Shown: positions 13,553 to 36,878, numbered from the stretch's first letter. The stretch is DNA of 64,000 nt from a bacterium (GCA_021822495.1 JAKAQO010000008.1:1-64000); one strand, 5' to 3'. Made by a program: numbers and translations. The notes: generated by a model from the letters alone, not told the origin.

Positions 13553-16246
13553 TCAAACCATGGAGAGAACCGGCTCCGGCGCGCGCTCAAAAGTCCAGGG
13601 CGGGGGCGCCCAGCCGCTGGGCGGGTCTTTTCCCACGGCGCCTTTAAGATGCTTGAGGCCTCCGCGCGGCAGTCCCTTGCGCCCAGTGGCGAGATAGAGC
13701 TCGGTAAATCCGAACTCTGCAATCCTGAAGGAAACCTCAATTCCGTTGACTTTGCCGCCCAATTCCTGGTCGATATAGACGGGCGTTGAGCGATTGATTC
13801 CGGAGACCGCTCTTAAGAACTCCGAGGCGGAGGGAAAAGACAGGAGTTTCTTTCCCGCGCGGTTTGCCGCCAATTTCCAGGTCATGCGCACCAAGGGATC
13901 GTCGTCTATAAGGACAGCGTCCCAGAAGGGTTCGGGGCTCTCGGAGAGCCGAAGGGGAACCATTCCCGCAAAACTCTTTGGAATCATCCGCACGCCGAGG
14001 CGTCGGCATTCCTCCAATATCCCGGGTTCGTCAAAGCGGCTGGTGACCAAGATCGCCCGCTCGCAAACGCCCAATTCCTCGACGAGTTCAAGCCCCGTTT
14101 CCTTGTGTCCCAATAATTCGTAGTCCACGAGATAAACGGCTTTTTGGGCGCTTTGTGGGTTTTGCCCGGCCCAGGATTTTATCTCATGGGGAGTGGAGAA
14201 ATGAAAGACCCTGGGGGTTTTCTCTTGCCGCCGCGAGAACTCAAGGCGTTCTCGCCAAACCTGGTGGATGCTCGCGTCATCATCCAAAATAACAATATCC
14301 TCGCCCGGGTAAATCCACAGTTCCGAGATGAACCAATCCGGGGCCGGGGCTTGCGGAATCTCAAGGGTCACGCTCGTTCTCGGAGTTTGGGCCGACGCGC
14401 CAAAATCACTTCCGGTTACGACATTTCCAGAGGTCAAAGTTAATTGACCGCCCCAAGACTCCACGGCGGCTTTCGCGTGGTGAAGTCCGAGACCCGAGCC
14501 CTTCAATTTGCCGAAACTCGCGCCCTTGCGGCACAGCCTCGGCAAAATATCCGGCGCTATTCCCGCGCCGTTATCCGTAATCTCAAGCGCGACAAAATCG
14601 CCTTGTTTAGAGAGATTGACCTGGACTTGCCCGTTTCCCGGTTCTCTCATCGCCTCGACCGCGTTGTCGATGAGATTCGACAAAACGCGCTTAAACTCGA
14701 CTGGCTGGACCAGGGCAAAGAGCCCGTAGGAGGACCGGTCCATGCGCGCCTCTATCTCAAGGCCGAGGCGGGAGCGGTATTGCAGGCGCTTTTCCGTAAT
14801 CAAGGGCTCAATGAGGCTCGACAAAAGGCAAAGGGCGGCGGGCTCATCAAAAACTTCCGAAGCGCCGGATGAACCATAAATCCTTGTGTCCATAACTTGC
14901 CTGCGCTCATCGAGGAGGTGATTGGCGATATCGCGGATGCGGCCGATGGCGCCGCGAATAATCAAGCGCTTTTCTTCCGGAAGCCGGGAGGCGTCCGCCA
15001 TGACGGAGTCCAAGGCCGCCAAGGGCGAGCGGATGTCGTGAGCGACCTGCGAGGAGAGATCGGCGAGGCTTCTCTGGATCGCCTCTTCCCGCCGGCGCCG
15101 CGTCGCATCCTCCTGAAACGCCGCTCGGTAGATTTGCCGCAACTCCATCGGCATGACGCGCGCATTCAGGAGAAAATCGTTTTCATCGGCGATATGGACG
15201 AGCTGGCCGAACATCAGGGAGTAGCGGATGATCTGCCTGGCCAATAACTCCCCCGCGAACGCCGCAAGCGCGGCGCCGAGAGCGACGCCGAAGAGGACGA
15301 TGCGGTAGGAATTCGGGCCGTGGGAAAGAATCAGGGCGGCTCCAATCAGGAAGGCGCTGATCAGAGACAAGATCGTCATTTTTTGCCGAGACGCCAGGCT
15401 TAAAACCGCGCTCCGCTCCTCGGAATCGGGCCATGGAGCGAAATTTCCCACAACCGAAAAGGCATACCAAAAGGCGATAATCCCGCACAACCACAGAAAT
15501 TCATACTCGCCGAAAACAAAAGAATTTTGATGCACGAGATAGGCCGAGATGCCGCCCCAGTTCCCCAACTGTGAAATAATTCCGGCGAGCCCCGCGAGGG
15601 AAAAGACGGGTTCTGGGGAAATCATGAGCGCGGCGCAGGACCAGAAAAAGAAAAGGATGGAGAATAGGGAGTTCAAGGCAATTTCAAGGAAATCAAAGCT
15701 TAAGCCCGCGGCTGCGTATCGAGCGCGAAGGAGGGGGAGGAAAACTCCACAAATCGCGGGAACGGCTAAAAGCGCGGGAAGCCAAAGAATTTTCAGGAGC
15801 TTCCAAGGCTTATCGCGAAAATCCCTCATCAAGGGGCGCAGATGCTGAAAAAATCCAACCGCGCCGATGAGATAGGCGGCGGTATAGGGCAAGGTGGTCA
15901 AGAAAAAGGAGGTCCAGTTCTCATGATTATCCTTAAAAAGATAATGCAGGCTCAGATAGCTGATGTCGGCGGGAAGGATGAGGCAGAAAAACCAAAGGAA
16001 ATAACGATACTCTCCGGCTTTTTCTTTTCGCCGGGAAAACAAATTGAGGATGATCGCCGCTTCGAGAGAGCATTCCAGGAACCCGGTCAAGAGTCCGGGA
16101 GTAAGCGCGGGAAACGCCCGCGAGCGGTCCAGGGCAAAGCCGAGAAACCCAACCGCCCAGGCCAAAAACAATCCGCCGAAACGCTTAAATTCCGGCTGAA
16201 AATCAGAAGCAAAACCCGCGCGGACAAGATAATCGGGAGATTCCAT
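13553..16246 (-). CDS. Hybrid sensor histidine kinase with multi-pass membrane sensor and two receiver domains
   Basis: 897 residues. The first 330 or so hold about ten hydrophobic helices, an integral-membrane sensor. The HisKA domain has its phospho-accepting His near 405 (SQVAHDIRSPLAAL), followed by the ATPase with N box NLIDNAVEAM, G1 DNGAGI and G2 GSGLGLH. Two receivers follow, the first with DDD, VDYEL and PKS, the second with IDDDP, IDQEL and a later Lys. A 21-bp repeat-derived stretch sits at the very C-terminus and another in the ATP-lid beta hairpin. The gene lies six bases after the methyltransferase and one base before rpoN, so it is operonic. It probably phosphorylates the NtrC-type regulator at 17222-18583. 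Confidence 0.9.
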   Translation of the reverse strand: MESPDYLVRAGFASDFQPEFKRFGGLFLAWAVGFLGFALDRSRAFPALTPGLLTGFLECSLEAAIILNLFSRRKEKAGEYRYFLWFFCLILPADISYLSLHYLFKDNHENWTSFFLTTLPYTAAYLIGAVGFFQHLRPLMRDFRDKPWKLLKILWLPALLAVPAICGVFLPLLRARYAAAGLSFDFLEIALNSLFSILFFFWSCAALMISPEPVFSLAGLAGIISQLGNWGGISAYLVHQNSFVFGEYEFLWLCGIIAFWYAFSVVGNFAPWPDSEERSAVLSLASRQKMTILSLISAFLIGAALILSHGPNSYRIVLFGVALGAALAAFAGELLARQIIRYSLMFGQLVHIADENDFLLNARVMPMELRQIYRAAFQEDATRRRREEAIQRSLADLSSQVAHDIRSPLAALDSVMADASRLPEEKRLIIRGAIGRIRDIANHLLDERRQVMDTRIYGSSGASEVFDEPAALCLLSSLIEPLITEKRLQYRSRLGLEIEARMDRSSYGLFALVQPVEFKRVLSNLIDNAVEAMREPGNGQVQVNLSKQGDFVALEITDNGAGIAPDILPRLCRKGASFGKLKGSGLGLHHAKAAVESWGGQLTLTSGNVVTGSDFGASAQTPRTSVTLEIPQAPAPDWFISELWIYPGEDIVILDDDASIHQVWRERLEFSRRQEKTPRVFHFSTPHEIKSWAGQNPQSAQKAVYLVDYELLGHKETGLELVEELGVCERAILVTSRFDEPGILEECRRLGVRMIPKSFAGMVPLRLSESPEPFWDAVLIDDDPLVRMTWKLAANRAGKKLLSFPSASEFLRAVSGINRSTPVYIDQELGGKVNGIEVSFRIAEFGFTELYLATGRKGLPRGGLKHLKGAVGKDPPSGWAPPPWTFERAPEPVLSMV
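13600..13626 (-). repeat. 21-bp palindromic unit inside the kinase gene
   Basis: GCGCCCAGCCGCTGGGCG with flanking GGG is one unit of the window-wide 21-bp family (stem CGCCCA/TGGGCG, 5-base loop). Here it is read on the minus strand as DPPSGWAPPPW in the kinase C-terminus. Confidence 0.7.
14381..14402 (-). repeat. Degenerate copy of the 21-bp unit in the kinase ATP-binding domain
   Basis: GTTTGGGCCGACGCGCC resembles the unit at 25105-25135 (GTCTGGGCCGACGCGCC). It encodes GASAQTPR between the last two strands of the ATPase domain, consistent with an inserted loop. Confidence 0.4.
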
Positions 16247-16252
16247 GCCCGT

Positions 16253-17044
16253 CTATTTCGGCCGCCGAACCCTGGGGCAGGGTCGCCGGACCCTGGGGCA
16301 GGGCCGCCGCGCCAACGCCATAATTCTCTGGGAGGCAAGTCCGGCATTTCTCTTCTCGCTTAAGCCGCCCATCAGGACGATGTTTTCAAATCCGGCCCAT
16401 CTTAAAGCCTTTTCCAGGCGTTTGCGGTCGTAGTGTCGGCTAAAACTTTCCGCTTCGCTGACTTTTCCGTTTTTGCCGATAAAAACCCAACGCGAGATCC
16501 AAGCCGGATCGGTCCCTCCCCGGAACCGGTGTTCCTCCAACTCCCAACCGCGCTCGGTTTTGATCCAGTCCTTTTGTTTGGCGTGCCGCTTAAGCCAGCG
16601 GCCGTCGGCGATGTCGAGGACCAAAAAACCGCCGGGCTTAAGGGACTTGAATATCTGCCGGAGGGTCAAAAGATCGTCTTGGAATTTTTTGAAATACCCG
16701 AAGCTGGTCCAGAGGTTCAGCGCGGCGTCAAATTGCCCGCTAAAGCCGAGAGCCCGCATATCGCGTTTCAAGAAATTGGCTTGAATTCCCGCCGCCCGGG
16801 CGCGCCGTTTGGCCTCGGCAAGGTATCCCTCCGAATAGTCCACGCCCGTCACCAGATAGCCTTTCCGCGACAAGGACAGGCTATGTCGGCCGACTCCGCA
16901 GGCGACATCCAGTATTTCCGCGCCCTTTTTTAGCGGCAGTCGGCGCAACAGCTCGCGGGTCTCCTTCTCGGTTTCCTCATCACTCACCAACTCGGCCAAG
17001 GGGTAGACCGAGGGCTTAAAAAAGCTCTTCCACCAGTCGTTCAT
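16253..17044 (-). CDS. Class I SAM-dependent methyltransferase
   Basis: 263 residues. Motif I is LDVACGVGRHS (about 40-50), followed by the acidic motif GVDYSEG and a motif IV-like ALNLWTSFGYF, a standard Rossmann methyltransferase (Methyltransf_25/11 type). The C-terminus ends in two copies of RPCPRVR, encoded by a 21-bp tandem repeat, so the native tail seems to have been extended or replaced. ATG 17044 overlaps the preceding stop (ATGA). The gene sits in the middle of a sigma-54/two-component operon. The substrate is unknown; a signalling protein is conceivable, but so is a small molecule. Confidence 0.8.
   Translation of the reverse strand: MNDWWKSFFKPSVYPLAELVSDEETEKETRELLRRLPLKKGAEILDVACGVGRHSLSLSRKGYLVTGVDYSEGYLAEAKRRARAAGIQANFLKRDMRALGFSGQFDAALNLWTSFGYFKKFQDDLLTLRQIFKSLKPGGFLVLDIADGRWLKRHAKQKDWIKTERGWELEEHRFRGGTDPAWISRWVFIGKNGKVSEAESFSRHYDRKRLEKALRWAGFENIVLMGGLSEKRNAGLASQRIMALARRPCPRVRRPCPRVRRPK
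16265..16306 (-). repeat. Two tandem 21-bp units at the methyltransferase C-terminus
   Basis: Two 21-bp units, 16265-16285 and 16286-16306, share CCCTGGGGCAGGG and differ at two positions. They encode RPCPRVR twice on the minus strand. The length and palindromic core parallel the CGCCCA-type units elsewhere, but the sequence is a different subfamily. Confidence 0.75.
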
Positions 17045-17238
17045 CCCGCCAGTCCTCGCCTTTTCCTATAAAAGGCGATATCATGGGATAATTTCCGCGT
17101 TTGGGCGTCCATGAGACCAAGAAGGGCGTCGGCCTCTTGCGTCGGAAGGGCCTCAATCATCTCCGCCGCGCTTTTGAGGCTCAGACACCGGGAATTGATG
17201 TCGTGGAGGAGGGCGCCCATATCATCCAGGGCGTTCAT
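17041..17238 (-). CDS. Stand-alone DHp (HisKA-like) small protein
   Basis: 65 residues from ATG 17238, overlapping the response-regulator stop by 17 bases and the methyltransferase start by 4. It is predicted to be two long helices. The first contains LLHDINSRCLSL, which resembles a histidine-kinase H box (HD-N/x). The second ends in a basic tail (FYRKRRG). No ATPase domain follows. It could be a phosphotransfer protein, a kinase-dimer poison or an adaptor for the neighbouring kinase/regulator pair. The resemblance is short, so the function is tentative, but the overlaps on both sides support a real gene. Confidence 0.65.
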   Translation of the reverse strand: MNALDDMGALLHDINSRCLSLKSAAEMIEALPTQEADALLGLMDAQTRKLSHDIAFYRKRRGLAG

Positions 17239-18583
17239 GTTTTGACTCCGTCCTTGCGGTCCGCGAGCTTCTCTGGATGGATTTGTAGAGAAGTCCCGTG
17301 GCGATCTTGAGGTCGGACAAGACCTTGGTCTTGACCCGGCCGTTCTCGGACAAGCAGCGCGCGATGATGAGATCGATAAATCTCTCAACCGCCTTCTTGA
17401 GGCCGTGTTCGAGGGCGAAGCGGTAGTGTTCATCCCCGATGAGGCTTCTTGACCTCTCGGCCTTTTCATTTGAAATAATCTTGCCTACCGCTTCTCCGCT
17501 GACAAGGCCCTCCCGCCCCGCCATGAGGAGTTCCACGAACTTTTTCAGCTCCCGGACATTCCCGGGCCAATCGTAGTTCAGGATTTTTTCCCTGGCCTCG
17601 GGTGAAAACGAAAGCCGGCGATCCCCCTTGGTGAAAAAAGACAGAAGCGGGAAAATATCGCCTTTTCTTTGAGCGAGGGGTTTGAGGTTGAGGGTGAGCC
17701 CGTGGATTCTGTGGAAGAAATCAAAGCGCATCTTCCCGGATTTAACCAGGCTCTGGATATCCTCCAAGGTCGCGCTCATCAGGCGAAATCGCGAGGTTTG
17801 GGGCGCGTCGGAGCCGAGGGGGTAAAAAGATTTCTCCTCGATAGCCTTCAGGAGCTTGGCCTGCATTTTGGGGCTCATGGCCCCAATCTCATCCAGAAAG
17901 AGGGTCCCTTGATCGGCCAGGAGAAGTTTTCCCTTGCGGTCCTCAAAGGCGCCGGTAAAAGCGCCCTTGCGATAGCCGAAGAGCTCCGCTTCGAGAAGGT
18001 CCTCGGGGCAGGCCGAGCAGTTGACGGCGACAAACTCTCCCGTTCGCCCGGAGCGGTCGTGAATCAGGCGGGCGAGGCTGGTCTTGCCGGAGCCCGAGGG
18101 GCCAAGGATCAGGAGGGGAATCTCCAAACCGGCGAGGCTAAGGGCCTCCTCTATGGACCTTTGCGTCTCTGGGTCCTCGGTGATGAACTCGCTTTTAAAA
18201 ACGCTCCTGGTCTTGGAGGCTTGCCGCGAGGCCTGGCAACGGGCGAGGATTTTGCCGATGTTCTCGCGTTCGTTTCCCTTGGCGTAGAAATCATCGCAGC
18301 CCAGGGCGTAGGCGCGCTCGATAAAGTCCTCCTTGGCGTGGCTGGACATGACGACCGAGTAAAGCCCCGAGGCCTTGGCGGCGGGGATGAGATCGAGTCC
18401 GGAAAAGCCTTCCTTCCCCAATTTAAGATCGATAAAGCAGAGGTCGTGCTCGCCCGATTTTATTTTTTTGAGCGCGGAATGCGAGTCTTCCGCGAAGTCA
18501 ATCTCATGTCCGGTCAGGTTGTTTCCGAGGACTTTACGGGCCAAAGGATCGTCATCTATGACCAGGATGGAGAGTTGAGCCAT
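17222..18583 (-). CDS. NtrC-family sigma-54-dependent response regulator
   Basis: About 453 residues. The receiver (about 1-120) has an acidic pocket IDDDP, phospho-acceptor Asp in CFIDLKL and Lys in YAKG. The central AAA+ domain has Walker A GPSGSGKTS, the sigma-54 contact loop GAFTGA and Walker B LFLDEIG. The C-terminal Fis-like region is divergent (RCLSENGRVKTKVLSDLKIATGL). It activates sigma-54 holoenzyme after phosphorylation. ATG 18583 gives a conventional receiver N-terminus; an upstream in-frame ATG at 18598 falls at the edge of a large palindrome. It is first in the operon that ends in rpoN, so kinase, activator and sigma factor are co-expressed. Confidence 0.9.
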   Translation of the reverse strand: MAQLSILVIDDDPLARKVLGNNLTGHEIDFAEDSHSALKKIKSGEHDLCFIDLKLGKEGFSGLDLIPAAKASGLYSVVMSSHAKEDFIERAYALGCDDFYAKGNERENIGKILARCQASRQASKTRSVFKSEFITEDPETQRSIEEALSLAGLEIPLLILGPSGSGKTSLARLIHDRSGRTGEFVAVNCSACPEDLLEAELFGYRKGAFTGAFEDRKGKLLLADQGTLFLDEIGAMSPKMQAKLLKAIEEKSFYPLGSDAPQTSRFRLMSATLEDIQSLVKSGKMRFDFFHRIHGLTLNLKPLAQRKGDIFPLLSFFTKGDRRLSFSPEAREKILNYDWPGNVRELKKFVELLMAGREGLVSGEAVGKIISNEKAERSRSLIGDEHYRFALEHGLKKAVERFIDLIIARCLSENGRVKTKVLSDLKIATGLLYKSIQRSSRTARTESKHERPG

Positions 18584-18598
18584 GAAGCATTGTAGCAT

Positions 18599-18634
18599 AT
18601 TTCTAAATAGAAATAATTATTTCTATTTAGAAAT
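18599..18634. promoter_or_regulatory. 36-bp perfect palindrome at the head of the sigma-54 operon
   Basis: The left half is ATTTCTAAATAGAAATAA and the right half is its exact reverse complement. Each arm is itself nearly symmetric (TTTCTAAATAGAAA), so it looks like two adjacent dyad operators. It lies immediately upstream of the response-regulator start and divergent from the gene at 18766. Likely an operator, for autoregulation or phage/ICE-type repression. It could also form a hairpin in the leader. Confidence 0.65.
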
Positions 18635-19483: not shown

Positions 19484-19539
19484 ACGGCGGGGGATAATGA
19501 GCAGGAAATAGAGGAAAGGATGGGTTGAGGAGTTTAGAA

Positions 19540-20466
19540 ATGAGGGGAGAGATGATTAAGGTCAAGGTTTGGGAAGGGGAGGAAAAATCTGAATTTGAGG
19601 TCAGGAGATCAGGGTTAGGAGTCTTAAAAGGTCTGGAGAGATGGGGGGTTTTGAGTCTGTCACAGATAGAGGGATTGGTGTTTGGCAAGGCATCGGGAAG
19701 GAAAAGATTGGAACTGTTTTTCAATGGAAGGTTCAAGGATGAGTATCGGGGAGCGGCCTATAAAGTTCTGGAAAGGCTGGTTAAAAGAGGCTTGGTGATG
19801 GGGCAAAGCTATGTCAATTTGACGCGGGTTTACTCATTAACCAGGAAGGGACATGCGGCTTTGGTTGAGTCTGGACTGGCGGGTCTTGAGGACTACAGGG
19901 ACACGGTTTCCGACAGCATGATCCGGCATGAGCTGTTGGTTTCGGGGATCGGTCTTGTCATCAGCGAGTTGATAGGGCTTCCGGTGGCCACTAACTTCGA
20001 ACATCAAATCCTGAAGCGAGGAGAGGCGGGCCAAGGGTCGCCTTCGCCTGATCTGTGGGTATCCATAGGCGTTGGCGCCCAGCCTCTGGGCGGGAGCGCC
20101 CAATCTTTGGGCGGGGGGTCAAATGCCATCGAGGTCGAGAGAAGCCTTAAATCAGCCGAGCGCTACCAGGGACTCTGGGAGCTCTACCGCTACTACTTTT
20201 CCGGGGGCGGCGTTGTTCTCTACATCACGGCTTGGCCTGGACTGAGCCATAAAATTTTGTCGCTGGCCCGGAAATTCCTGATGGATTTTATCTATGTCTG
20301 TCCGCTTGAGGACTTCCGCAAATCCCTGGGAAAAGGCGCTTTTGTCAACTATCGCGGCGAACAATTCAGTCTGGGACGGCCCCAGTCTGTAGAGCCGCTG
20401 AGCCAAGGCCTGGGCGCCCAGCGTCCCCGGCCCGAACATAAATTGGCTCTAGGTTTACCGCGATGA
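19540..20466 (+). CDS. Replication-relaxation (Replic_Relax)-like protein
   Basis: About 308 residues. An N-terminal winged-helix part (about 25-95, RLVKRGLV and RVYSLTRKGH) is followed by an alpha/beta domain with PDLWV and IEVERSLKSAERYQ, the pattern of the Replic_Relax family found on plasmids and integrative elements. It may initiate or assist DNA processing at the proposed oriT. A 21-bp repeat pair inserts GAQPLGG-type residues between the conserved PDLWV and IEVE strands, and another palindrome lies near the C-terminus. ATG 19540 has GAGGAG upstream; 19552 is an equally good start. Its stop overlaps the coupling-protein start (ATGA). The first 250 bases are unusually purine-rich. Confidence 0.65.
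   Translation: MRGEMIKVKVWEGEEKSEFEVRRSGLGVLKGLERWGVLSLSQIEGLVFGKASGRKRLELFFNGRFKDEYRGAAYKVLERLVKRGLVMGQSYVNLTRVYSLTRKGHAALVESGLAGLEDYRDTVSDSMIRHELLVSGIGLVISELIGLPVATNFEHQILKRGEAGQGSPSPDLWVSIGVGAQPLGGSAQSLGGGSNAIEVERSLKSAERYQGLWELYRYYFSGGGVVLYITAWPGLSHKILSLARKFLMDFIYVCPLEDFRKSLGKGAFVNYRGEQFSLGRPQSVEPLSQGLGAQRPRPEHKLALGLPR
20071..20117 (+). repeat. Two tandem 21-bp units inside the Replic_Relax gene
   Basis: GGCGCCCAGCCTCTGGGCG followed by GAGCGCCCAATCTTTGGGCG, encoding GAQPLGG-SAQSLGG. The insertion preserves the frame between conserved strands of the host protein. Confidence 0.8.
20404..20425 (+). repeat. Palindromic unit near the Replic_Relax C-terminus
   Basis: Contains the perfect 12-bp palindrome CTGGGCGCCCAG (20410-20421), the junction of two 21-bp-family half-units. 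It encodes QGLGAQ. Confidence 0.55.
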
Positions 20467-22160
20467 ACATCCATTTATTAAGTCTGATGCCTCGCCTTCA
20501 TCTCACCGGGACGCTTCCTTTGAGACTCCGCCGCAGGCATCCTTCCCTCTCGGCTGAGCGCGCTGCGGCTTTGGGGGGACTTGCCGCTTTTCTCGCGATG
20601 TCTTTCCGTGGACCTCGCCAAAAGCGCAAACCCGGGTGGAATCAACCGGGCCAAGGTCGCGGCTTCGTCACGCGGGACCTCGACCGTATCCTAAAAAGAA
20701 ACCTTGCTTCACCTAGAGGCCGCGCTCACAAACTCAAATTTTGGACCGACGCCTCCCCGTCACCGGCCGCTCTCCACAAGACGTTTTTGGGAATCGCACG
20801 CGGAACCTGGGGCCGGCGTCCGGTCTATCTCCAGAACCAAAACCGCCAACCACATATGCAAATCGTGGGACCGACGCGCTCGGGAAAATCCCAACTCCTC
20901 TTGGCCTTGTCCGCCCAGGATATGCGCGCCGGCATCCCGCTCTTTTTCATGGAGGCCAAGGGGGATGACTCGGACTTTAATCAATTCCTCGCCCTGGCTT
21001 CCCTGGCCGGACGGGCGGGCGATGTCCGGTATTTCAACCCGCAGGACCCGCGCTCCATGACCTTTAACCCCATCCGCCGACTCCCTGGTCAAGACGCCAA
21101 CTCACTGGCCGACCAACTCTCACGCATCCTCGGCCGAGAACCGGGTTCCGGCGCCGAGGCCCAGGACTATTACAAATCCGTGGACTATTCCAAAATCCAG
21201 AATATGTCCGAAATCTTCTGGGAGACCAATCTCCAATATACCTTGCGCGATTGCTTCTGCTATTTCAACTATCCCGAGTGTCGGGAAAAGGCCTGGCGTT
21301 TGTCGAGAAGCGCCAGACTCATCGAGATGGCGCGCCGCGAGTTCGAGCAGAAAACCGATACGGCGGCCCTGACCTCGGCCCTAAGACCTTATGTCACCGG
21401 ACCCCTGGGAGAATTGCTCAACTCCTATGCCCCGCAAATCAAACTCGAGGAAATCTTCTCCCGCAATCAACTCGTCTATTTCGCCATCCCCATCGGATAT
21501 CTTCCGGTTCTGGCCAATCCGCTCGGACGCATGCTCATCTCGGGACTATTGTCGGTCGCGGCCTTCAGACAGCGTCAAGCTCCCAAACCCGGACCGGCTT
21601 CAATCATTTTAGATGAGTTCGCGGAATTTGCCACCCCCGCTTTCGCCTCCTTCATCGCCACCGTCGGCTCCGCCAACTTCTGGACCACCCTCTCCCATCA
21701 GGACCTGGGCCAGCTCAAAAAAGTCCAGGGAACCAATCCCGAGGCCTTTAAATCCGCCGTCTTCAACAACACCTCCGGCTGTAAAATCTGCTTCCGAAGC
21801 CCCGACCCCGCCGACGCCGAGTTCTGGTCCGCCGTGCTCGGAACCTACCAGACCGTCGAGGACACCGAACGGTTTAAAAAAACTTTATTCGGCACGCAAG
21901 GAACGGGGGAAATCTCGCGCAGAACCGTCGAACATTTCAAGGTTCATCCCAATACGCTTAAAAATCTAGCCCCCGGAACCGCTTTGGTTTTCTCTCCAGG
22001 ACATGAGGACTCCCTCATCCGCACCGCGCGCGTCTTTAATCTCATCAAGAACGCGCGACCGGAACTGAGCCGCGTTACGACTTTGGAAGAACCAGGACTT
22101 GATCTGGCTTCCATCATCAAACCTCCACAAGCCGCCGCGGACAGGAAAACCCGGATATGA
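20463..22160 (+). CDS. Type IV coupling protein (VirD4/TraD/TraG-like)
   Basis: 565 residues. Walker A is GPTRSGKS (136-143), Walker B is IILDEFAEF (about 380-388), and the later Q/H-rich motif LSHQDLGQL is typical of T4CP ATPases. At most one weak N-terminal membrane helix (about 33-48) is visible, fewer than classic TraG. It docks the relaxosome to the T4SS and powers DNA entry. Both ends overlap neighbours by ATGA, with the Replic_Relax gene upstream and the surface-protein gene downstream, so it is translationally coupled to both. Confidence 0.85.
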   Translation: MNIHLLSLMPRLHLTGTLPLRLRRRHPSLSAERAAALGGLAAFLAMSFRGPRQKRKPGWNQPGQGRGFVTRDLDRILKRNLASPRGRAHKLKFWTDASPSPAALHKTFLGIARGTWGRRPVYLQNQNRQPHMQIVGPTRSGKSQLLLALSAQDMRAGIPLFFMEAKGDDSDFNQFLALASLAGRAGDVRYFNPQDPRSMTFNPIRRLPGQDANSLADQLSRILGREPGSGAEAQDYYKSVDYSKIQNMSEIFWETNLQYTLRDCFCYFNYPECREKAWRLSRSARLIEMARREFEQKTDTAALTSALRPYVTGPLGELLNSYAPQIKLEEIFSRNQLVYFAIPIGYLPVLANPLGRMLISGLLSVAAFRQRQAPKPGPASIILDEFAEFATPAFASFIATVGSANFWTTLSHQDLGQLKKVQGTNPEAFKSAVFNNTSGCKICFRSPDPADAEFWSAVLGTYQTVEDTERFKKTLFGTQGTGEISRRTVEHFKVHPNTLKNLAPGTALVFSPGHEDSLIRTARVFNLIKNARPELSRVTTLEEPGLDLASIIKPPQAAADRKTRI

Positions 22161-25100
22161 ACCGCGCCAACCAGCTTAAGAAATTCCACTATCTCGCGCT
22201 CCTTGCGCCCCTAGCCCTTTTGCTGACTTCCCCCAGCGCCAAGGCCGATAACTACTTCCCTCAATTTTCATTCAACGCCCCGTTCGCTATCGCCGCCATG
22301 GACCGCGACGCCGTGGGAAATCTCTACCTCCTCGGTACCCCGCAAGGAAGGTCTTCTTTACAGGTCCTCGAAGTGGCGGAGGAAAATCTTAACTCACCAA
22401 ATCCAAGCCTCACCACCCTCTCCTCTTTCGATACCGGACTCTCAACCGCCTCGGCCTTCGCCGTCGAGGGCTCCGGCATCATTGACATCCTTGACGACGC
22501 AAACGGCTACCGCTTCACCCGCTTCTCGAACTCGGGAACCTTCATCAGCTCCGCCGCCTATTTCCTCAGCTACATCGCCCCCAATATCGTTTCAACCGCC
22601 ATCGATAAAATCAACGACCGCGTCTATATCGCCTATCAATACACCTATACCCCCATCTACGTACAATGCCTCGGCTGCCAAGGACCTTCCACCGTCACCA
22701 CCGCCAAGATTAACGAGTATGACTTCGCGGGAAATCTCCTCAACGCCTTTTATATGCCGGGTACAAGTTCCTCTGGCTGCAACACGCCCTCGGCCGCCGC
22801 CGTGGACCCACAGGGAAACCTGCATATAGAAGACTCGGTCTGCCAACAAATCCTCAGCTATTCTCCCAGCGGACAAAACTTAAGCCAAACTCCCAATCCT
22901 GAATGGATGAGCGCTCGCCTAATGTGGACCGACCTGGATTCAAACCTCTATCTCAGCGGAACCGTCTGCGCCGGAACTTGCGCCCCGGAAATGCTCAAGC
23001 TGGGAAACGGAGGAACGCTTCAAACAAGCCTGTTGACGACGCTCGCCGTGGGCTCGGCCTGGGATAACCGCATCTTGTATCTGGCCAATGGAACTTCTCT
23101 CGAACGACAAGTCTACGCCGGAGCCCCATCAGTGCCGGTTGAAATTTCTCCCATGGGACTGACCGTCCAGCATTCCTCCGCCGCGACACTTTCCTGGCAA
23201 ACGGTCTCAGACCCAGACGGCGACCCCATTCTCTACACCGCCTACCTCGGGCAATCGCCACAGTCTCTTCAAACACTGCCAACAACCGCACAATCCACAC
23301 TCTCAACCCAACCCCTCGATTTCGGAACAACCTATTACTGGACGATTTCCGCCCAAGCCTTCTACCTCGGACTTCCCCTCGAGGCGACCTCGGCCCCCAT
23401 CGAAAACTTCAATCTCGGCCTTATCAACAATCCGCCGGGCAACTTTTCGGTCCTCTCGGGAACCGGAACCTTTGAAACCCGCGCCTCTTCTCAAACCCTG
23501 TCCTGGCAACAAGCCCCGGACCCCGACGGCGACGCAGTCAATTACGTTCTAAACCTCTCAACGGTCCCGGGAGTTTCTAACCTCATCCAGATGGGAACCG
23601 CAACCGATTACGTCCTTAATTTTCAATACGGAACCACCTACTACTGGAGCGTCACGGCCACCGACAGTTACGGCGCGGCGACGACGATGACGGGGGGAAC
23701 GCAAACCTATCTCCCCATCTTCTGGAACCCGCAACCCCTTCCAGTGGTCTATCTCAGCACGGCTTCCTCTTATAACCTCCACACCGACTCGCCAACCATC
23801 AATCTCAGCTGGTCGCCCTCCAGCGACGCGGCCTCGGATTCTATCAGCTACGCTCTCTTCGTCAAGACGAGCACGGGAAACTGGCCGGCTATTTCCACCG
23901 GACAATCAACCAATATCAACCTATCGGTTCAGCTGGGAACCACCTATTACTGGGAGGTCCTGGCGGAAAACCCCTATGGCGGAATCTCAACCGCAACCTG
24001 GCAAAACTTCGTCGTCAATCTCCAAAACGACCCGCCGGATAATTTCTCGGTCCTATCGGGCACCGGAACCTTTGAGACGCGCGCCTCTTCTCAAACCCTG
24101 TCCTGGCAACAAGCCCCAGACCCCGACGGCGACGCAGTCAATTACGTTCTAAACCTCTCAACGGTCCCGGGAGTTTCTAACCTCATCCAGATGGGAACCG
24201 CAACCGATTACGTCCTTAATTTTCAATACGGAACCACCTACTACTGGAGCGTCACGGCCACCGACAGTTACGGCGCGGCGACGACGATGACGGGGGGAAC
24301 GCAAACCTATCTCCCCATCTTCTGGAACCCGCAACCCCTTCCAGTGGTCTATCTCAGCACGGCTTCCTCTTATAACCTCCACACCGACTCGCCAACCATC
24401 AATCTCAGCTGGTCGCCCTCCAGCGACGCGGCCTCGGATTCTATCAACTACGCTCTCTTCGTCAAGACGAGCACAGGAAACTGGCCGGCTATTTCCACCG
24501 GACAATCAACCAATATCAACCTATCGGTTCAGCTGGGAACCACCTATTACTGGGAGGTCCTGGCGGAAAACCCTTATGGCGGAATCTCAACCGCAACCTG
24601 GCAAAACTTTATCGTCAATCTCCAAAACGACCCGCCGGGAGATTTCTCGGTCCTATCGGGAACCGGAACCTTTGAGACGCGCGCCTCTTCTCAAACCCTG
24701 TCCTGGCAACAAGCCCCAGACCCCGACGGCGACGCGGTCAACTACGCTCTAAACCTCTCGACCGTCCCGGGAGTTTTTAATCTCATCCAGATGGGAACCT
24801 CGACCGATTACGTCCTCAACTTTCAATACGGGACGACTTACTACTGGAGCGTTTCGGCCTTTGACGATTTCGGCTCAAGTTCGACCATGACGAGTTCGCC
24901 GCAAACTTTTTTGCCCCTCTTCTTAAACCAAGCCCCGCCGCCGCCCAATCTCGTCTCGCCCTTCCTTCAATCCCCCATAGTCCACTCCATGTCCAACAAC
25001 GTCAATGTCTCCTGGCAAAAAGTTTCAGACCCGCAAGACGACCCCATCGCCTATACCCTCTATTTCGGCGAGTCTCCCTCCGATATGCCGCCCTTGGCCG

Positions 25101-25642
25101 TCCTCGACGCGCCCAGAGTCTGGGCCGACGCGCCCGCAAGTCAATCCTCAGAATCCCTCAATCTTAGGCCTTTAAGCCCTCAACCTAATATCCAAATATC
25201 AGTCGCCCAGGACACTTCCTCCATCGCCGTCGAAATCATGAACCTCGCCTATTACCAGAACTATTATCTCAAGGTCGCCGCCGCAAACCCCTACGGCTCG
25301 ACATCCGAAACCCAAATCCAACAATTCTCACTGGCATCAAACGTCGATTTCCCCAGGGCCTACAATTATCCCAATCCCTTTAGCCCCTATAAAGGAGGGA
25401 CGCATATCGTCTTCAACGCCCCGCCCTCGGGATATGCGCAAGCAACCGTCGAGATTTATTCGGAATGGCAGACTCTCCTCTTTAAACAGGATTACTTCCA
25501 TATCCCGCCCGGCATCAGTCAACAGGATTTTAACGGCCGCGACCGCTACGGAAAACCACTCTTCAATGGCAGCTATATCTGCAAGGTTCGCTTCTCGGGA
25601 CCGGCAGATGCCGCGACCTTTTACCTGATGGTGGTCAAATGA
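22157..25642 (+). CDS. Secreted FN3-repeat surface protein within the T4SS operon, FlgD/T9SS-like C-terminus
   Basis: 1161 residues, signal peptide about 1-30 (ending AKAD). The N-terminal 330 residues resemble an NHL-like or beta-propeller region (IYVAYQ- and NLYLSG-type strands). At least seven fibronectin-III-like domains follow with the recurrent YYW signature (TTYYWSV, TTYYWEV), including two nearly identical 200-residue blocks. The C-terminal domain begins YNYPNPFSPYKGG and ends FYLMVVK, a sorting-type domain. It overlaps the coupling protein and the next PorV-like gene by 4 bases each. A role in donor-recipient adhesion or surface exclusion is inferred. One 21-bp-family repeat lies at 25105-25135. 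Confidence 0.75.
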   Translation: MNRANQLKKFHYLALLAPLALLLTSPSAKADNYFPQFSFNAPFAIAAMDRDAVGNLYLLGTPQGRSSLQVLEVAEENLNSPNPSLTTLSSFDTGLSTASAFAVEGSGIIDILDDANGYRFTRFSNSGTFISSAAYFLSYIAPNIVSTAIDKINDRVYIAYQYTYTPIYVQCLGCQGPSTVTTAKINEYDFAGNLLNAFYMPGTSSSGCNTPSAAAVDPQGNLHIEDSVCQQILSYSPSGQNLSQTPNPEWMSARLMWTDLDSNLYLSGTVCAGTCAPEMLKLGNGGTLQTSLLTTLAVGSAWDNRILYLANGTSLERQVYAGAPSVPVEISPMGLTVQHSSAATLSWQTVSDPDGDPILYTAYLGQSPQSLQTLPTTAQSTLSTQPLDFGTTYYWTISAQAFYLGLPLEATSAPIENFNLGLINNPPGNFSVLSGTGTFETRASSQTLSWQQAPDPDGDAVNYVLNLSTVPGVSNLIQMGTATDYVLNFQYGTTYYWSVTATDSYGAATTMTGGTQTYLPIFWNPQPLPVVYLSTASSYNLHTDSPTINLSWSPSSDAASDSISYALFVKTSTGNWPAISTGQSTNINLSVQLGTTYYWEVLAENPYGGISTATWQNFVVNLQNDPPDNFSVLSGTGTFETRASSQTLSWQQAPDPDGDAVNYVLNLSTVPGVSNLIQMGTATDYVLNFQYGTTYYWSVTATDSYGAATTMTGGTQTYLPIFWNPQPLPVVYLSTASSYNLHTDSPTINLSWSPSSDAASDSINYALFVKTSTGNWPAISTGQSTNINLSVQLGTTYYWEVLAENPYGGISTATWQNFIVNLQNDPPGDFSVLSGTGTFETRASSQTLSWQQAPDPDGDAVNYALNLSTVPGVFNLIQMGTSTDYVLNFQYGTTYYWSVSAFDDFGSSSTMTSSPQTFLPLFLNQAPPPPNLVSPFLQSPIVHSMSNNVNVSWQKVSDPQDDPIAYTLYFGESPSDMPPLAVLDAPRVWADAPASQSSESLNLRPLSPQPNIQISVAQDTSSIAVEIMNLAYYQNYYLKVAAANPYGSTSETQIQQFSLASNVDFPRAYNYPNPFSPYKGGTHIVFNAPPSGYAQATVEIYSEWQTLLFKQDYFHIPPGISQQDFNGRDRYGKPLFNGSYICKVRFSGPADAATFYLMVVK
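23441..24870 (+). repeat. 600-bp in-gene tandem duplication
   Basis: The block starting at 23441 recurs at 24041 with very few differences, and the first part recurs more diverged from 24641. The period is exactly 600 bp (200 residues), encoding pairs of FN3-like domains. The near identity suggests recent duplication or gene conversion. Confidence 0.9.
25105..25135 (+). repeat. 21-bp-family unit in the surface-protein gene
   Basis: GACGCGCCCAGAGTCTGGGC followed by CGACGCGCCC, encoding DAPRVWADAP. This is the same alternative frame (APxxWA) as in the VirB10-like gene. Confidence 0.55.
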
Positions 25643-28467: not shown

Positions 28468-28474
28468 GTTAAAA

Positions 28475-32104: not shown

Positions 32105-32111
32105 CGGCGAG

Positions 32112-32372
32112 CTAGGGCTTGCGGTAGGCGTTTTGGTGAGACCCGATATTGCGCAGACACACGCCGCCGTCGATCCATTGAAAGGTGAGGCGATAGTTCA
32201 CGTCCACCCGCGCCGACCAGATATCGCGCCTAAAGTCTATCTTCTCGACATGAAGAGACGGATGCCGAGGATCGCGCTCAAAGAGAAGAATCGCCTTATC
32301 CGCCTTGCGGCGAACGGGCTCGGGCAGAGCCTGGTATGCCCGCTTAAAGCGCTCGGTGCGCTCGAAAATCAA
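32112..32372 (-). CDS. RelE/YafQ-like toxin
   Basis: 86 residues. RelE-superfamily pattern: FKRAYQALPEPVRRKADKAI helix, then RRDIWSARVDVNYRLTFQW strands and a C-terminal RNIGSHQNAYR. The basic and His residues near the end suit a ribosome-dependent or free mRNA interferase. It overlaps the antitoxin stop by 4 bases and ends 7 bases after virB4 on the opposite strand. Confidence 0.85.
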   Translation of the reverse strand: MIFERTERFKRAYQALPEPVRRKADKAILLFERDPRHPSLHVEKIDFRRDIWSARVDVNYRLTFQWIDGGVCLRNIGSHQNAYRKP

Positions 32373-32734: not shown

Positions 32735-32774
32735 GGAATCCCTCCAATTTAAAGTTAACCTTAAAGACAATAAT

Positions 32775-32803
32775 AGTTTAACTCCAATATCATGCCCTGT
32801 CAA
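32775..32803 (-). promoter_or_regulatory. Promoter/operator of the RelE/Phd pair
   Basis: Minus strand TTGACA (32803-32798), 17 bases, TAAACT (32780-32775). The nearby AGTTAAC and GTTTAACT form an imperfect dyad over the start region, a likely antitoxin operator. Confidence 0.55.
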
Positions 32804-32842
32804 GGGCGCCCGAAATTACAAACAGCAAAACAGGAGAAACTC

Positions 32843-33556
32843 ATGAAACAAACCGCGTTCTTTTCACTACTGCTTATCCTATTCGCCGCGCCCGCGCGCG
32901 CCCAGTTCCTGGTGGGGTCCGCCGTCAGCGGAATGCAGTATGCCCAGGAAAAGGCCTATGAGGCCTTCATGAAAATCCAGATCATCCAGGAACTCGAGAT
33001 TCTCCGCCAAAACTATACCGCCTCGGTCAATTACTACAACCAGTTCAAGCAGCTGAACTCGGGGAAGGGCTTTTTGTTCAACCTCTCCCAACAGTTTAAG
33101 ACCGCCGAGAACGCCGACATCGCCCAGATGAAGTGGCAACTCCTTGATTCCTATAACGGAAATACCGCGACCGACCGCTTCGTCGAACAGGCCAATGAGA
33201 CCGTTTATAACGACATGGCCTATGCGGGAAACGAAGCGGCCAATCTCATCTCGAATAAAAAAACGGCCCGTCAGCTCGCCCAAAACGCCGGAAATTTGTC
33301 TCCCAAGGACGCCGCCAATCTCACCGCCAAATCGCAAAGCCTCGAACTTCAAATGCTCCTTCAGCTTCACGAAGACAATCTGCGCCTCATTGAGCTTGCC
33401 TCGATACAGACATTAGGACAAAACCAGCGCGGCAAAGGAGAACTCAACATGATCCAAAACATCAAGGCCGGACTTAAAAAGCGCTTCCCCAACGCTCAAA
33501 TCGGCGGGGGCGCCCAGCCCCTGGGCGGGGGCGCCCAGCCGCTGGGAGGAAATTAA
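32843..33556 (+). CDS. VirB5/TrbJ-like T4SS protein
   Basis: 237 residues from ATG 32843 (AGGAG upstream), with a signal peptide (about 1-21, ending ARAQ). Long helices (about 25-215) resemble VirB5/TrbJ minor pilin or tip-adhesin proteins: QIIQELEILRQNYTAS and LLQLHEDNLRLIEL. The C-terminus ends in two GAQPLGG units from the 21-bp repeat family. It starts after the antisense RelE module. Confidence 0.75.
   Translation: MKQTAFFSLLLILFAAPARAQFLVGSAVSGMQYAQEKAYEAFMKIQIIQELEILRQNYTASVNYYNQFKQLNSGKGFLFNLSQQFKTAENADIAQMKWQLLDSYNGNTATDRFVEQANETVYNDMAYAGNEAANLISNKKTARQLAQNAGNLSPKDAANLTAKSQSLELQMLLQLHEDNLRLIELASIQTLGQNQRGKGELNMIQNIKAGLKKRFPNAQIGGGAQPLGGGAQPLGGN
33505..33553 (+). repeat. Two 21-bp units at the VirB5-like C-terminus
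   Basis: Two copies of the form GGCGCCCAGCCCCTGGGCGG encode GGGAQPLGGGAQPLGG directly before the stop codon. The palindromes may also act at the mRNA level near the downstream start. Confidence 0.85.
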
Positions 33557-34543
33557 ATGAATCCCAGCGTCCTCATCAATCTCTCTCAAATACCGATACA
33601 ACTCTCGGGACTGAGTTCCTTGACTACGGCCATCGCCCTGGGCCTTCTGGCCTTCATCATCCCCTACTCCGCCGTCGAGATGAATCTGCGCGCAATCTCG
33701 GGGCGAGGTTCGCCGGGATACGCCGGGCTCTTTCTTCGCATCGCTATCGCCATGAGCTGCCTGCTTGCCTATGACAAGCTCTACGGACTCTTCCTCGGAG
33801 CTTTCCAGGCCCTGTCTTATTCGGTCCTCAGCTCACAAGATTGGGGAAATTTCCTCGTCAAGGATTTTTCGGCCCCCAACGCCGCTTCCCCGATCCTCTC
33901 CTGGCTGACCCATCCCCTCAGTTCGGTTCAGGCCATCGTCCTATTCCTGGCAAGCCTCTTTGCCGTCACCGCTAAGGACGTCATCGTCATGCTTCAGGCT
34001 TCTTTTCTGAGCCTTCTCTTCGCCTTCGGACCCATCGCCATCGTCTGCTCAATCAGCGAAAAATCATTCTGCGTGACCAGGGGCTGGCTGGTCAACTCGG
34101 TTCAGATCGCCTCCTGGAGTTTTTTCTTGAGACTCGTCATCCGGGTTTGGCTGACCCTTGGCCCTTTGGCGACTAATACGGGAACCGGAACGGCTAATGA
34201 TTTCCTGGGTCTTTTGGCCGTCAACTCGGCCTTTTTTGTCCTGGTCCTGGGAACGCCGATTCTATCGGCGCGGCTGATATCGGGGGAAAGCCTGTCCTTT
34301 TTCGCCGAGGCGGCCCTGGGGACGATGAACGCGGCGGCCATCGGCCTTCCTTTAAAAGCGGGGAAATATTTAGGCGAGAGATCCCGAAACGCGGGGGGAA
34401 ATATGCGGACTCGAAGCGAGGGCGCCCCGCCAACGCCTCAAAGAAACGCCCTCCCCATGACCGCCACCTCCGCCTATCGCCGCCTCTTCAAGCGAAAAAA
34501 CGACAAGAAACCGGATGATAAAAAATCAGGAGAAAATCCATGA
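33557..34543 (+). CDS. VirB6/TrbL-like polytopic T4SS channel protein
   Basis: 328 residues with about six or seven membrane segments (for example 23-44, 58-84, 118-140, 147-170, 181-201 and 217-240) and a basic hydrophilic C-terminus (RLFKRKNDKKPDDKK). This matches VirB6/TrbL topology. The ATG follows the VirB5-like stop without a gap, and the stop overlaps the next start (ATGA). Confidence 0.8.
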   Translation: MNPSVLINLSQIPIQLSGLSSLTTAIALGLLAFIIPYSAVEMNLRAISGRGSPGYAGLFLRIAIAMSCLLAYDKLYGLFLGAFQALSYSVLSSQDWGNFLVKDFSAPNAASPILSWLTHPLSSVQAIVLFLASLFAVTAKDVIVMLQASFLSLLFAFGPIAIVCSISEKSFCVTRGWLVNSVQIASWSFFLRLVIRVWLTLGPLATNTGTGTANDFLGLLAVNSAFFVLVLGTPILSARLISGESLSFFAEAALGTMNAAAIGLPLKAGKYLGERSRNAGGNMRTRSEGAPPTPQRNALPMTATSAYRRLFKRKNDKKPDDKKSGENP

Positions 34544-35325
34544 TCGGATTTAAAACGAAGACCCCGTCAAAGCCGAAGGCTCAAATTAATTCTTCCTCGG
34601 CGGATGTTCGGCCGGAAACCCAGACCCTGGGCGGGGGCGCCCAACCTCTGGGCGCGGACGCCCAACCTTTGGGCACGAACGCCCAGCCTCTGGCTGGGGG
34701 CGATGAGTCTCTCGGCGTTCCCATCTATTACGAGGCCTGGGGCGGTCTTGAAAGCGCCAATAAAACCTTGTGGACCGCGCTTTGGTTTGCGATCAGCGCC
34801 GCGATCCTTTTAATCATCCTCCTTCGCCTGGAGATTCAAAAGCCGCCGGTCGTCATACTCCTCAGCCAAACGGGAAGCCCCCAGGTCGTCGTGGGAGCGC
34901 AATCCGCCCCGCCCGTCAGCGCCGATGAAATCAAAAATTTCATCGCCCTCTTCGAACGCTTCTTCACCGAGCTTGACCGCTACGCTTACAATGAAAGCCT
35001 TCAAACTGCCTTCTCCATGATGACCCCCAAGTTTAAAATAAAAGCCCAGGATATCCTTGACCGCGAGGGCCTCATCGAAACCATCAAAACGGATGAGATT
35101 AGGACGAAATTGACGCTGACCGATATTTCCATCGTCAGGGAAACCCCTGAATTCATCGAGTGCGACGTGAAGGGCTGGCGCGAGATTAGCTCCTTTAAAC
35201 TAGACGGACCCAAGTCCGAGATCGTGTTTGAAGACGAGATCATCTTAAAAAAAGTCCCGCGCTCACAAACCGCTCCCGACGGCGTCTTGGTTAAGGACTG
35301 GAAGGAAAGCCTCTTTAAAAAATGA
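34540..35325 (+). CDS. VirB8/TraE-like T4SS scaffold protein
   Basis: 261 residues. A cytoplasmic N-terminus (1-85) is followed by one membrane helix (about 87-107, WFAISAAILLIILL) and a periplasmic NTF2-like domain (about 125-255), as in VirB8. The N-terminus contains about five tandem heptads of GAQPLGx type encoded by 21-bp units (34621-34725), lengthening the cytoplasmic segment. ATGA overlaps at both ends indicate translational coupling. Confidence 0.75.
   Translation: MIGFKTKTPSKPKAQINSSSADVRPETQTLGGGAQPLGADAQPLGTNAQPLAGGDESLGVPIYYEAWGGLESANKTLWTALWFAISAAILLIILLRLEIQKPPVVILLSQTGSPQVVVGAQSAPPVSADEIKNFIALFERFFTELDRYAYNESLQTAFSMMTPKFKIKAQDILDREGLIETIKTDEIRTKLTLTDISIVRETPEFIECDVKGWREISSFKLDGPKSEIVFEDEIILKKVPRSQTAPDGVLVKDWKESLFKK
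34621..34725 (+). repeat. Array of about five 21-bp units in the VirB8-like gene
   Basis: The units encode TQTLGG, GAQPLGA, DAQPLGT, NAQPLAG and GDESLG, with the outer units most degenerate. The core is GCGCCCAACCTCTGGGCGC. The period is 21 bp, so the frame is kept whatever the copy number. Confidence 0.9.
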
Positions 35326-36110
35326 ACAGACTTATTTTTTTCTCGGCCGTAACTGCCGTCCTGGCCGCCGCTTTTCTTCTCTCTTCCCATCCCGCGCCAA
35401 AAACAAATTATGCGGCCAGCGCCGGAACCTTGATGCAATCTTCCAACCAGCCGCAACCAACGGAAAACTTAAACCTCCTTGGAATTCCCGCGACAATGCC
35501 TCGGGCTCAAACCTCCAAACCCGCGCCGCGAATTAAACACAAGCGCGAAAAATTCCCAGTGGGTAAAAAGACTTCAGAAACGCCGACAAAAACGGGAAAC
35601 GAACAATCAAGTTCTCATGGAAACACGCCCTCGCCCAAGGCCCAGGTCAACGCCGCCCTGTCCCTTAAAAGAGCGGGGGATAAAAATTCCTCCGCCGACT
35701 TTATGGACAGCCTTCCGCGATATATCACGGAAGACCTCATCCAGGCTTTTGAAAAAGACCCCGCGAAGTATTTCCCCAAGGAATTAAAAGAGAAGGGCGG
35801 CATCGCCCTCAGGCTCATCGCGCTTGAGAACCTTGAGGATATGCTCGTCCTTAAGCTTGCCGTGGAAAATAGATCATCGGCGAATTTCTTCATTAAGGGA
35901 TTTAAGGCGAGTTCGGGCAGCCAAAGGCTGGGGGAACGTTCCTTGTTCAAGATTTTAGTCGAGGCCAAAACGACCAGGCGGGGATATGTTCTCATCCAAA
36001 AACCTAAGAGAAAAGGCGAGACTCGGATGAGTTCGGGCCTTGCGCTCGCCCTGGAAGAAGAAGGAGGTAAAAACAGGGTCATCGAGATTCCCATCCCGGA
36101 CCCCTTTTAA
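35322..36110 (+). CDS. VirB9/TraN-like T4SS periplasmic protein (tentative)
   Basis: 262 residues. An N-terminal signal or anchor (about 5-22) is followed by a Pro/Lys/Ser-rich linker (about 35-115) and a C-terminal beta-rich domain (about 150-260). LVLKLAVENRSSANFFIKGF resembles the VirB9/DUF4138-type pattern of a strand followed by polar NRSS and an aromatic pair. It sits between VirB8- and VirB10-like genes, the expected place for VirB9. Similarity is weak, so this call rests on position and fold pattern. Confidence 0.5.
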   Translation: MNRLIFFSAVTAVLAAAFLLSSHPAPKTNYAASAGTLMQSSNQPQPTENLNLLGIPATMPRAQTSKPAPRIKHKREKFPVGKKTSETPTKTGNEQSSSHGNTPSPKAQVNAALSLKRAGDKNSSADFMDSLPRYITEDLIQAFEKDPAKYFPKELKEKGGIALRLIALENLEDMLVLKLAVENRSSANFFIKGFKASSGSQRLGERSLFKILVEAKTTRRGYVLIQKPKRKGETRMSSGLALALEEEGGKNRVIEIPIPDPF

Positions 36111-36113
36111 ATT

Positions 36114-36878
36114 ATGAAACGATTAAAAAAGAGCTCAAAGGTTTTAATTCTGGTCGCCGCTTCTGGTCTTTGGATCGGAATGCCAAGCCCCCGGGGGCGG
36201 ACGCCCAACCTTTGGGCGGGGGCGCCCAGCCTCTGGGCGGAAACGCCGAAGGAAACCCCGCCCCTTGATCCCCTGGCCTTGGACCATCATCTTAAAGACG
36301 ATAAGCCCCGGCCTTGGCGGGGCGTGACGAAAAAAAATCAGACCAGCGATCGCTATTTTTTGCCCACCGGATTTACCTTTCCGGTCCGCCTTGAAAACGC
36401 CGTCTATTCCTATAACGTGGAAAGCCCCGCCATCGCCGCCGTGGATGAGGACATTGTCTATCTCGGCCGCGTCGTCATCCCCAGAAAAACCCGCGCCATC
36501 GGAGAAGTCTCGGTCCAGCAGGATCATAACCGCATCCTCATCACCTTTAGAACCCTCGTTTTTCCCTCGGGAGACGAGATCGCCTTTACCGGACTCGGCC
36601 TTTCCACGGACGGCTCCCTGGGGATTAAGGGAAAGGTCAAGACGCACAAGGATTCCGCCATCGCCGACACGGTCTTAAGCTCGGTCGTCAGCGGGGCGCA
36701 GGAAGCGGCGATGATGACGACGACGGCGGTCAACCCCGTCGCCGAGTCTGCCGTATCGGGACTTGCCGGAGAAGCCACCGGCGAACTGGGCGCTCAAAGA
36801 CAAAAAATCACCACCTCCATCTCGGTTGAGGCCGACACCGGACTTCAGATTTTCGTACCCAGAAGAGTCGAGTATTAA
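36114..36878 (+). CDS. VirB10/TrbI-like T4SS protein
   Basis: 254 residues. A single hydrophobic N-terminal segment (9-21) is followed by a repeat-derived Pro/Trp-rich stretch. The VirB10-type C-terminal beta-barrel (about 82-250) then shows VYLGRVVIPRKTRAIGEV, ITFRTLVFPSGDEI and SVEADTGLQIFVPR. It is much shorter than typical VirB10 (about 380), mainly in the linker. The 21-bp repeat is read in another frame here (RTPNLWA-GAPSLWA). It spans inner to outer membrane in known systems. Confidence 0.75.
   Translation: MKRLKKSSKVLILVAASGLWIGMPSPRGRTPNLWAGAPSLWAETPKETPPLDPLALDHHLKDDKPRPWRGVTKKNQTSDRYFLPTGFTFPVRLENAVYSYNVESPAIAAVDEDIVYLGRVVIPRKTRAIGEVSVQQDHNRILITFRTLVFPSGDEIAFTGLGLSTDGSLGIKGKVKTHKDSAIADTVLSSVVSGAQEAAMMTTTAVNPVAESAVSGLAGEATGELGAQRQKITTSISVEADTGLQIFVPRRVEY
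36187..36245 (+). repeat. Two to three 21-bp units in the VirB10-like gene, alternative frame
   Basis: The units GGCGGACGCCCAACCTTTGG and GGCGCCCAGCCTCTGGGCG encode RTPNLWA and GAPSLWA instead of AQPLGG, so the same DNA unit has been accepted in a different reading frame. A related palindrome (CCCCGGCCTTGGCGGGG) lies at 36308. Confidence 0.85.

Follow-up and report, generated by a model that had tools for sequence, protein, structure and literature searches.

A palindromic repeat with a period of 21 bp is found in frame in protein genes of a single conjugative element, which lies roughly at positions 12472 to 38418 of a 64,000-nucleotide bacterial sequence (GCA_021822495.1 JAKAQO010000008.1:1-64000; this whole stretch is termed the window). 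Its core, CGCCCAG-NNN-CTGGGCG, consists of a 7-bp stem and a 3-nt loop, i.e. a 17-bp palindrome, and the units often follow one another head-to-tail. Twelve units are present in six genes, those for a kinase, a relaxase-like protein, a surface protein with fn3 domains and VirB5-, VirB8- and VirB10/TrbI-like proteins, and a related pair ends a methyltransferase gene. How did such a sequence come to be in these genes? The reading preferred here, with slightly less than even confidence, is that the repeat spread by copying within the element, via template switching seeded by microhomology. An original prediction made from the window alone had described 21-bp palindromic units that keep the frame of many genes, and had proposed a self-propagating micro-repeat comparable to the Rickettsia palindromic elements (RPEs); the former is confirmed and the latter supported, by homologues that lack the inserts, by two reading phases and by both orientations of the units.

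When the window was scanned with the 18-mer GCGCCCAGCCTCTGGGCG, taken from that prediction, at up to three mismatches, there were 12 matches against 0.12 expected, and 0 of 100 shuffled sequences reached 12. This list enters two units on both strands, and VirB8 units 1 and 3, which fall below the threshold, were read from the sequence; the count of 12 units in six genes, plus the methyltransferase pair, is that obtained after reading of the flanks. Of the six arrays that Tandem Repeats Finder placed in the element, five have period 21; other stretches of the genome, 243 kb in all, hold one such array and 286 kb of related elements one more, and neither of these two outside arrays carries the palindrome. 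There is no stop codon in any of the six frames of the unit.

That the repeat is a DNA-level one and not a conserved peptide follows from its being read in two codon phases and in both orientations. In the relaxase-like, VirB5 and VirB8 genes, where the units encode AQPLGG, the centre of the palindrome is at codon position 2, and in the kinase, surface-protein, VirB10 and methyltransferase genes it is at codon position 1; VirB10 units encode APSLWA and the methyltransferase pair CPRVRRP. Relaxase unit 1 matches VirB10 unit 2 in 17 of 17 bp, yet one gives AQPLG and the other APSLW. These peptides had been foreseen, except that the surface protein, thought to share APSLWA, reads APRVWA instead.

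Are the units insertions, or old parts of these proteins? Comparison with homologous proteins shows that they are insertions. In the relaxase-like gene (19525-20466) two units (20075..20115, plus strand; starts at 20076 and 20097) form the tract GAQPLGGSAQSLGGG, which none of the homologues covering this site in a MAFFT alignment has; they read like DLWVSDxxQPKAIEVER. The VirB8-like gene (34540-35325) has four units (34617..34699, plus strand; starts at 34617, 34638, 34659 and 34680) in its N-terminal tail, ahead of a hydrophobic segment, and homologues that cover the site lack the tract. The VirB10/TrbI-like gene (36114-36878) has two units just past its signal segment (36201..36247, plus strand; starts at 36202 and 36223), which are read in the second phase (TPNLWAGAPSLWA) and are missing in 11 homologues. 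In the VirB5-like gene (32792-33556) the two units are C-terminal (33503..33549, plus strand; starts at 33511 and 33532), immediately ahead of the GGAGG ribosome site of the next gene, and are missing in 12 homologues. The single kinase unit (13598..13625, plus strand; start at 13607), near the 3' end of a gene on the minus strand (13553-16246), is antisense to that gene, reads PPSGWAP and breaks into a conserved GK[ED]PPW C-terminal end. In the methyltransferase gene (16253-17044) the 21-bp tandem pair (16260..16309, minus strand) lengthens a conserved ..LARRP end at the 3' side of the gene; its core, CCCTGCCCCAGGG, has no other occurrence in the genome. The insertion case is weaker for the surface-protein gene (22157-25642), where a single, weak and diverged unit (25105..25135, plus strand; start at 25110) sits in a stretch whose length varies among homologues. 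A stretch within the kinase gene, GAGTTTGGGCCGACGCGCC (14383..14401, plus strand), is identical in 18 of 19 positions to part of the surface-protein unit (25116-25134) and lies in a 12-residue insertion absent from kinase homologues; tentatively, it may represent a half unit.

The explanation of ordinary conserved protein sequence is accordingly rejected, as homologues lack the residues and the unit DNA is read in two phases. Orthologues sharing the same residues at the same sites had been named beforehand as the sign of that explanation, and the homologues do not have them. The insertion sites were also predicted to be at protein termini. This holds for five of the seven genes, in which the units lie no more than 50 codons from an end, where 26% of codons would be expected (p 0.015), but not for the other two. 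The AlphaFold model of the relaxase-like protein has a pLDDT of 37.

The palindrome has been maintained while its bases changed. Among 14 units, 92% of the pair cells are standard pairs and four pairs show changes on both sides, and the covariation score is 0.30 against 0.13 for shuffled data, a value reached in 0 of 500 shuffles. In VirB8 unit 4 the right arm has been re-made (CCCAGCC-TCT-GGCTGGG), GGCTGGG being the exact complement of CCCAGCC, and the surface-protein unit likewise has re-made perfect arms (AGA-G-TCT). According to a published report, template switching both generates perfect stems and keeps them perfect (PMC8794818), and by analogy the re-made arms of these two units would be the expected footprint of switching within a hairpin. 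Identity between units is 13.1/17 within a gene as against 13.9/17 between genes; likeness within arrays is thus no higher than between them, and the arrays did not come from simple local duplication. The suggestion that the unit expands in tandem therefore appears doubtful.

The repeat is confined to this single conjugative element. A search of the 2.2-Mb genome gave no more copies apart from two three-mismatch matches at chance level, four congeners have no unit, and in a sample of 340 genomes of the phylum no other genome has more than one exact match. A genome-wide repeat family, as the original prediction would have led one to look for in the genome and its relatives, is thus rejected. 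Relatives as a source were rejected as well, since their single matches look like chance, e.g. the contexts in two of the sampled genomes (G005 and G044) hold one isolated palindrome each. The two matches among viral sequences in IMG/VR (L180 and L181) are also isolated palindromes, and the remaining viral scans gave nothing related; plasmid and phage searches returned E values of 0.2 or worse, i.e. chance level. An array in Actinomyces (L045) proved to be a different sequence.

What the insertion points look like bears on how the units were copied. In five of the seven loci the inserted DNA lies between direct repeats whose spacing is exactly 21n bp: 7 bp in the kinase gene (GGGCGGG, 21 bp apart), 8 bp in the methyltransferase gene (GGCCGCCG, 42 bp apart), 10 bp in the surface-protein gene (CGACGCGCCC, 21 bp apart), 7 bp in VirB8 and 5 bp in VirB10. 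In simulated random insertions, runs of at least 7 bp arise in 0.08%. No seed length is divisible by three, and the gain of 21n bp is in frame; therefore the seed was either present beforehand or duplicated. Unit-free homologues show native sequence of this kind: CCGCCCTGG at the kinase site in two of them (L125 and L131), and in another (L107) the methyltransferase site has CGGCGGCCG. At the relaxase site several homologues natively encode QP or AQP, and the DNA there, GACGCCCAGCC in the unit-free L065 and ACGCCCAACC in L059, matches the left arm of the unit in letters and in phase. The left arm thus exists as native AQP codons in some homologues that have no unit, which suggests that the unit may have arisen in the relaxase-like gene.

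Copies would have moved between sites through microhomology-seeded replication template switching or through gene conversion. A nascent strand might stall, perhaps at the hairpin while the DNA is single-stranded in conjugative replication, anneal through a GGGCGG-like seed to a different array and copy whole 21-bp units; return at the same seed would add 21n bp with the frame kept, and switching inside the hairpin would re-perfect the arms. Purifying selection would then drop harmful copies, such that the survivors are in frame and near protein ends or in variable segments. The most complete version of this scheme, a transposase-free, self-spreading coding micro-repeat that originated from the element's own relaxase-like codons and passed from gene to gene of the element in frame-preserving 21-bp steps through seeded template switching, perhaps in the course of single-stranded transfer by conjugation, is rather unlikely to hold in all its parts.

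Several observations weigh against copying by template switching. The mechanism is deduced from end products, and neither intermediates nor strain polymorphism were seen. Seed sequences vary by locus, and the spacers of the methyltransferase and surface-protein units are unlike those of the main family; with seeds and spacers that differ in this way, one donor array does not account for all units. The relaxase and VirB5 loci have no exact flanking repeat of at least 5 bp at 42 bp, and chromosomal copies, which microhomology would lead one to expect, were not seen. Since several of the covarying changes (G-to-A and C-to-T) are silent when read in the AQPLG phase, coding constraint may account for some of the covariation.

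Chief among the rivals is a REP-like element (REP, repetitive extragenic palindrome) carried by a transposase: a REP-associated tyrosine transposase (RAYT) or other Y1-type enzyme would have inserted the units in an earlier, unsampled host where the palindrome formed a REP family throughout the genome, and the element would then have brought them here. REPs of 20-40 bp have been described inside genes of many species, frequently in dimers or groups (PMC3733652). At about 50% GC the present host is far poorer in GC than the unit; it has a RAYT/REP-like system of its own, and recent arrival predicts a restriction to the mobile element. However, no genome in the phylum sample has a family of the 21-bp palindrome, and in the GTDB collection tandem units are present in only two unrelated genomes. 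The GTAG tag occurs in 0 of 12 units, CGTC is near four of the 12 without being conserved, and neither is present in the methyltransferase pair. Both Y1 transposase genes of the host are flanked by other palindromes, neither like the 21-bp unit. Insertions of the IS200/IS605 type are not known to make a target duplication, unlike the flanking repeats seen at the units. Insertion by a transposase is judged unlikely.

Could the units instead serve the element at the DNA or RNA level? As palindromic operators, CGCCCA-N5-TGGGCG, set two helical turns apart, they might bind a regulator of the element such as the NtrC-like activator (17222-18598), and a 17-bp palindrome with 21-bp spacing, in an element that encodes a kinase, an NtrC-like regulator and a sigma-54 DNA-binding-domain protein, is in keeping with this, as is a similar array that follows an apparent NtrC-type gene, read by eye, in a metagenome-assembled genome (MAG) of Rokuibacteriota. 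Yet every unit is intragenic, none lies in the promoter gap at 18.6-19.5 kb, and homologous elements with the same genes have no units, which shows that these are not required; an operator role is improbable, and the earlier proposal of a DNA-binding site finds no support. A hairpin device in the mRNA that tunes translation or stability of the type IV secretion system (T4SS) genes would fit the stable GC hairpins near gene boundaries and the position of the VirB5 units ahead of the next gene's ribosome site. Folding is, however, not clearly beyond that of shuffled sequence in six of the seven loci (z-scores of -1.6 to +0.2, with -2.4 in VirB8), so that there is no consistent excess stability; the distance to start or stop codons is inconsistent and relatives do without units. 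This idea, also raised in the original prediction, is thereby left quite improbable. The chances are slimmer still for ordinary minisatellites, i.e. independent expansion of low-complexity, GC-rich linkers in each gene that became alike by convergence: the clustering near protein ends, where length variation is tolerated, would suit them, but not the 17/17 identity, in different phases, between genes 16 kb apart, nor a common 21-bp period at all loci when period-21 arrays are nearly absent elsewhere.

Comparison with known systems places the repeat beside several of them. RPE-1 and others, and their Wolbachia equivalents, are palindromic DNA found in frame in unrelated protein genes and tolerated by the protein (PMC2229807). 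The 21-bp units are similarly in frame in unrelated genes and absent from orthologues, but RPEs are 105-146 bp in length with a long stem-loop and terminal inverted repeats, as compared with the 7-bp stem and 3-nt loop here; RPEs are genome-wide and occur also in intergenic regions and RNA genes, whereas the units are found only in one conjugative element and often head-to-tail. GTAG/CGTC REPs, which include RPE-4 and RPE-6, are 20-40-bp palindromes in open reading frames, single, paired or grouped (PMC3733652), an arrangement the units share. Unlike REPs and REPINs, which are chromosome-wide, of high copy number and mostly intergenic, the units lack GTAG or a conserved CGTC tag, a matching RAYT and a genome-wide family, and have a head-to-tail period of 21 bp. 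The repeat thus works like RPEs and intragenic REPs but is a member of neither, differing in length, tag, transposase linkage and genome-wide distribution; what is new relative to known protein-coding palindromic repeats is that the units are 21 bp long, run head-to-tail and are confined to one conjugative element.

Other classes are more remote. Miniature inverted-repeat transposable elements have terminal inverted repeats and a constant target-site duplication, whereas the direct repeats here vary from 5 to 10 bp and the total step stays 21n. In an ordinary minisatellite, copies within an array would be more alike than those at different loci, which is not so here, and the sites of a regulator operator or iteron would be conserved, while here homologous genes and elements have no units. 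The small dispersed repeats (SDRs) of cyanobacteria, reportedly the subject of Elhai et al. in 2008, are comparable as very small repeated elements, a likeness drawn via citations of the SDR work and limited to what these convey; SDRs are cyanobacterial. SDR5 is reported to insert precisely into HIP1 sites (PMC4390886). Template switching at quasi-palindromes produces perfect hairpin arms and multi-base compensatory changes (PMC8794818, PMC7202029), and the re-made arms of the two units resemble this outcome; that process is known mainly as local mutation, however, and does not include the spread of one unit to distant genes.

In-frame palindromic insertions are a known phenomenon whose mode of movement had not been settled. 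With the whole family in one 26-kb element, together with unit-free homologues, native seeds and a constant 21-bp step, the copying mechanism becomes directly testable. Should the movement require no transposase, short DNA repeats would have a way of adding segments simultaneously to several proteins of the same machine.

The element was recognised by Pfam and NCBIfam matches and by gene order. Its regulatory block includes the sigma-54 DNA-binding-domain protein, the hybrid histidine kinase and the NtrC-like regulator; further genes encode the methyltransferase, the relaxase-like protein, a TraD/TraG coupling protein, the fn3 surface protein, a PorV-like protein and SSB, and those for secretion and integration VirB4, VirB5, a VirB6-like protein, VirB8, a gene in the VirB9 position, VirB10/TrbI and a tyrosine integrase. 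The kinase is considered part of the element because in a relative from another genus (G010:C100) kinase and relaxase-like homologues are close together. The label Replic_Relax, used at first for the relaxase-like protein, is weak, as the NCBIfam MobC replication-relaxation match (E 2.6e-5) is below the cut-off. In the same genome a remnant (L099, G000:C11:136000-144851) is 96% identical over 314 bp to window positions 19643-19956; this relative is internally deleted, the alignment jumping from there to the end of VirB10, and no unit is covered. Between the NtrC-like and relaxase-like genes is an AT-rich inverted repeat with 17-bp arms, ATTTCTAAATAGAAATAATTATTTCTATTTAGAAAT (18599-18634), possibly an origin-of-transfer or promoter feature. 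Within the surface-protein gene (window 23426-24925), three 300-bp segments at 600-bp spacing are 83-96% alike and constitute a recent domain duplication. A YPNPF sorting-like domain forms the end of the surface protein, which lies within the conjugative cluster together with a PorV-family protein (window 22157-27552); homologues of the surface protein are present in related elements too. A GmrSD/DUF262-type restriction endonuclease gene (window 39475-41649) adjoins the element.

The host's own REP/REPIN-like palindrome is AAAAAGGGGACWGTCCCCTTTTT, with 82 exact copies of its core, GGGGACWGTCCCC, in 2.2 Mb and none in a reversed control. These palindromes are often paired, and copies are found in the window at 45014 and 55904. 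Pairs flank a RAYT-like gene (L161, G000:C11:85009) and run in frame into its 3' end (PKKGTVPFFEISPKKGTVPFF). The second Y1 transposase gene (L162, G000:C5:16025) has a different inverted repeat, GGGACACATCACTTAATTA...TAATTAAGTGATGTGTCCC, on both sides (1120-1210 and 1905-1985). In the Rokuibacteriota MAG mentioned above (L046, 890-945) three tandem CGCCCA-N5-TGGGCG palindromes, with spacing of 21 and 15 bp, lie directly after the presumed regulator gene and may be either an independent look-alike or an operator array. Congener sequence carries other dispersed repeats of 14-16 bp, AGTTCGCTTCGGTAT and AAATGTTACCGAAA, at 2434, 3848 and 5118 of L158 and at 10176, 11833 and 12199 of L159.

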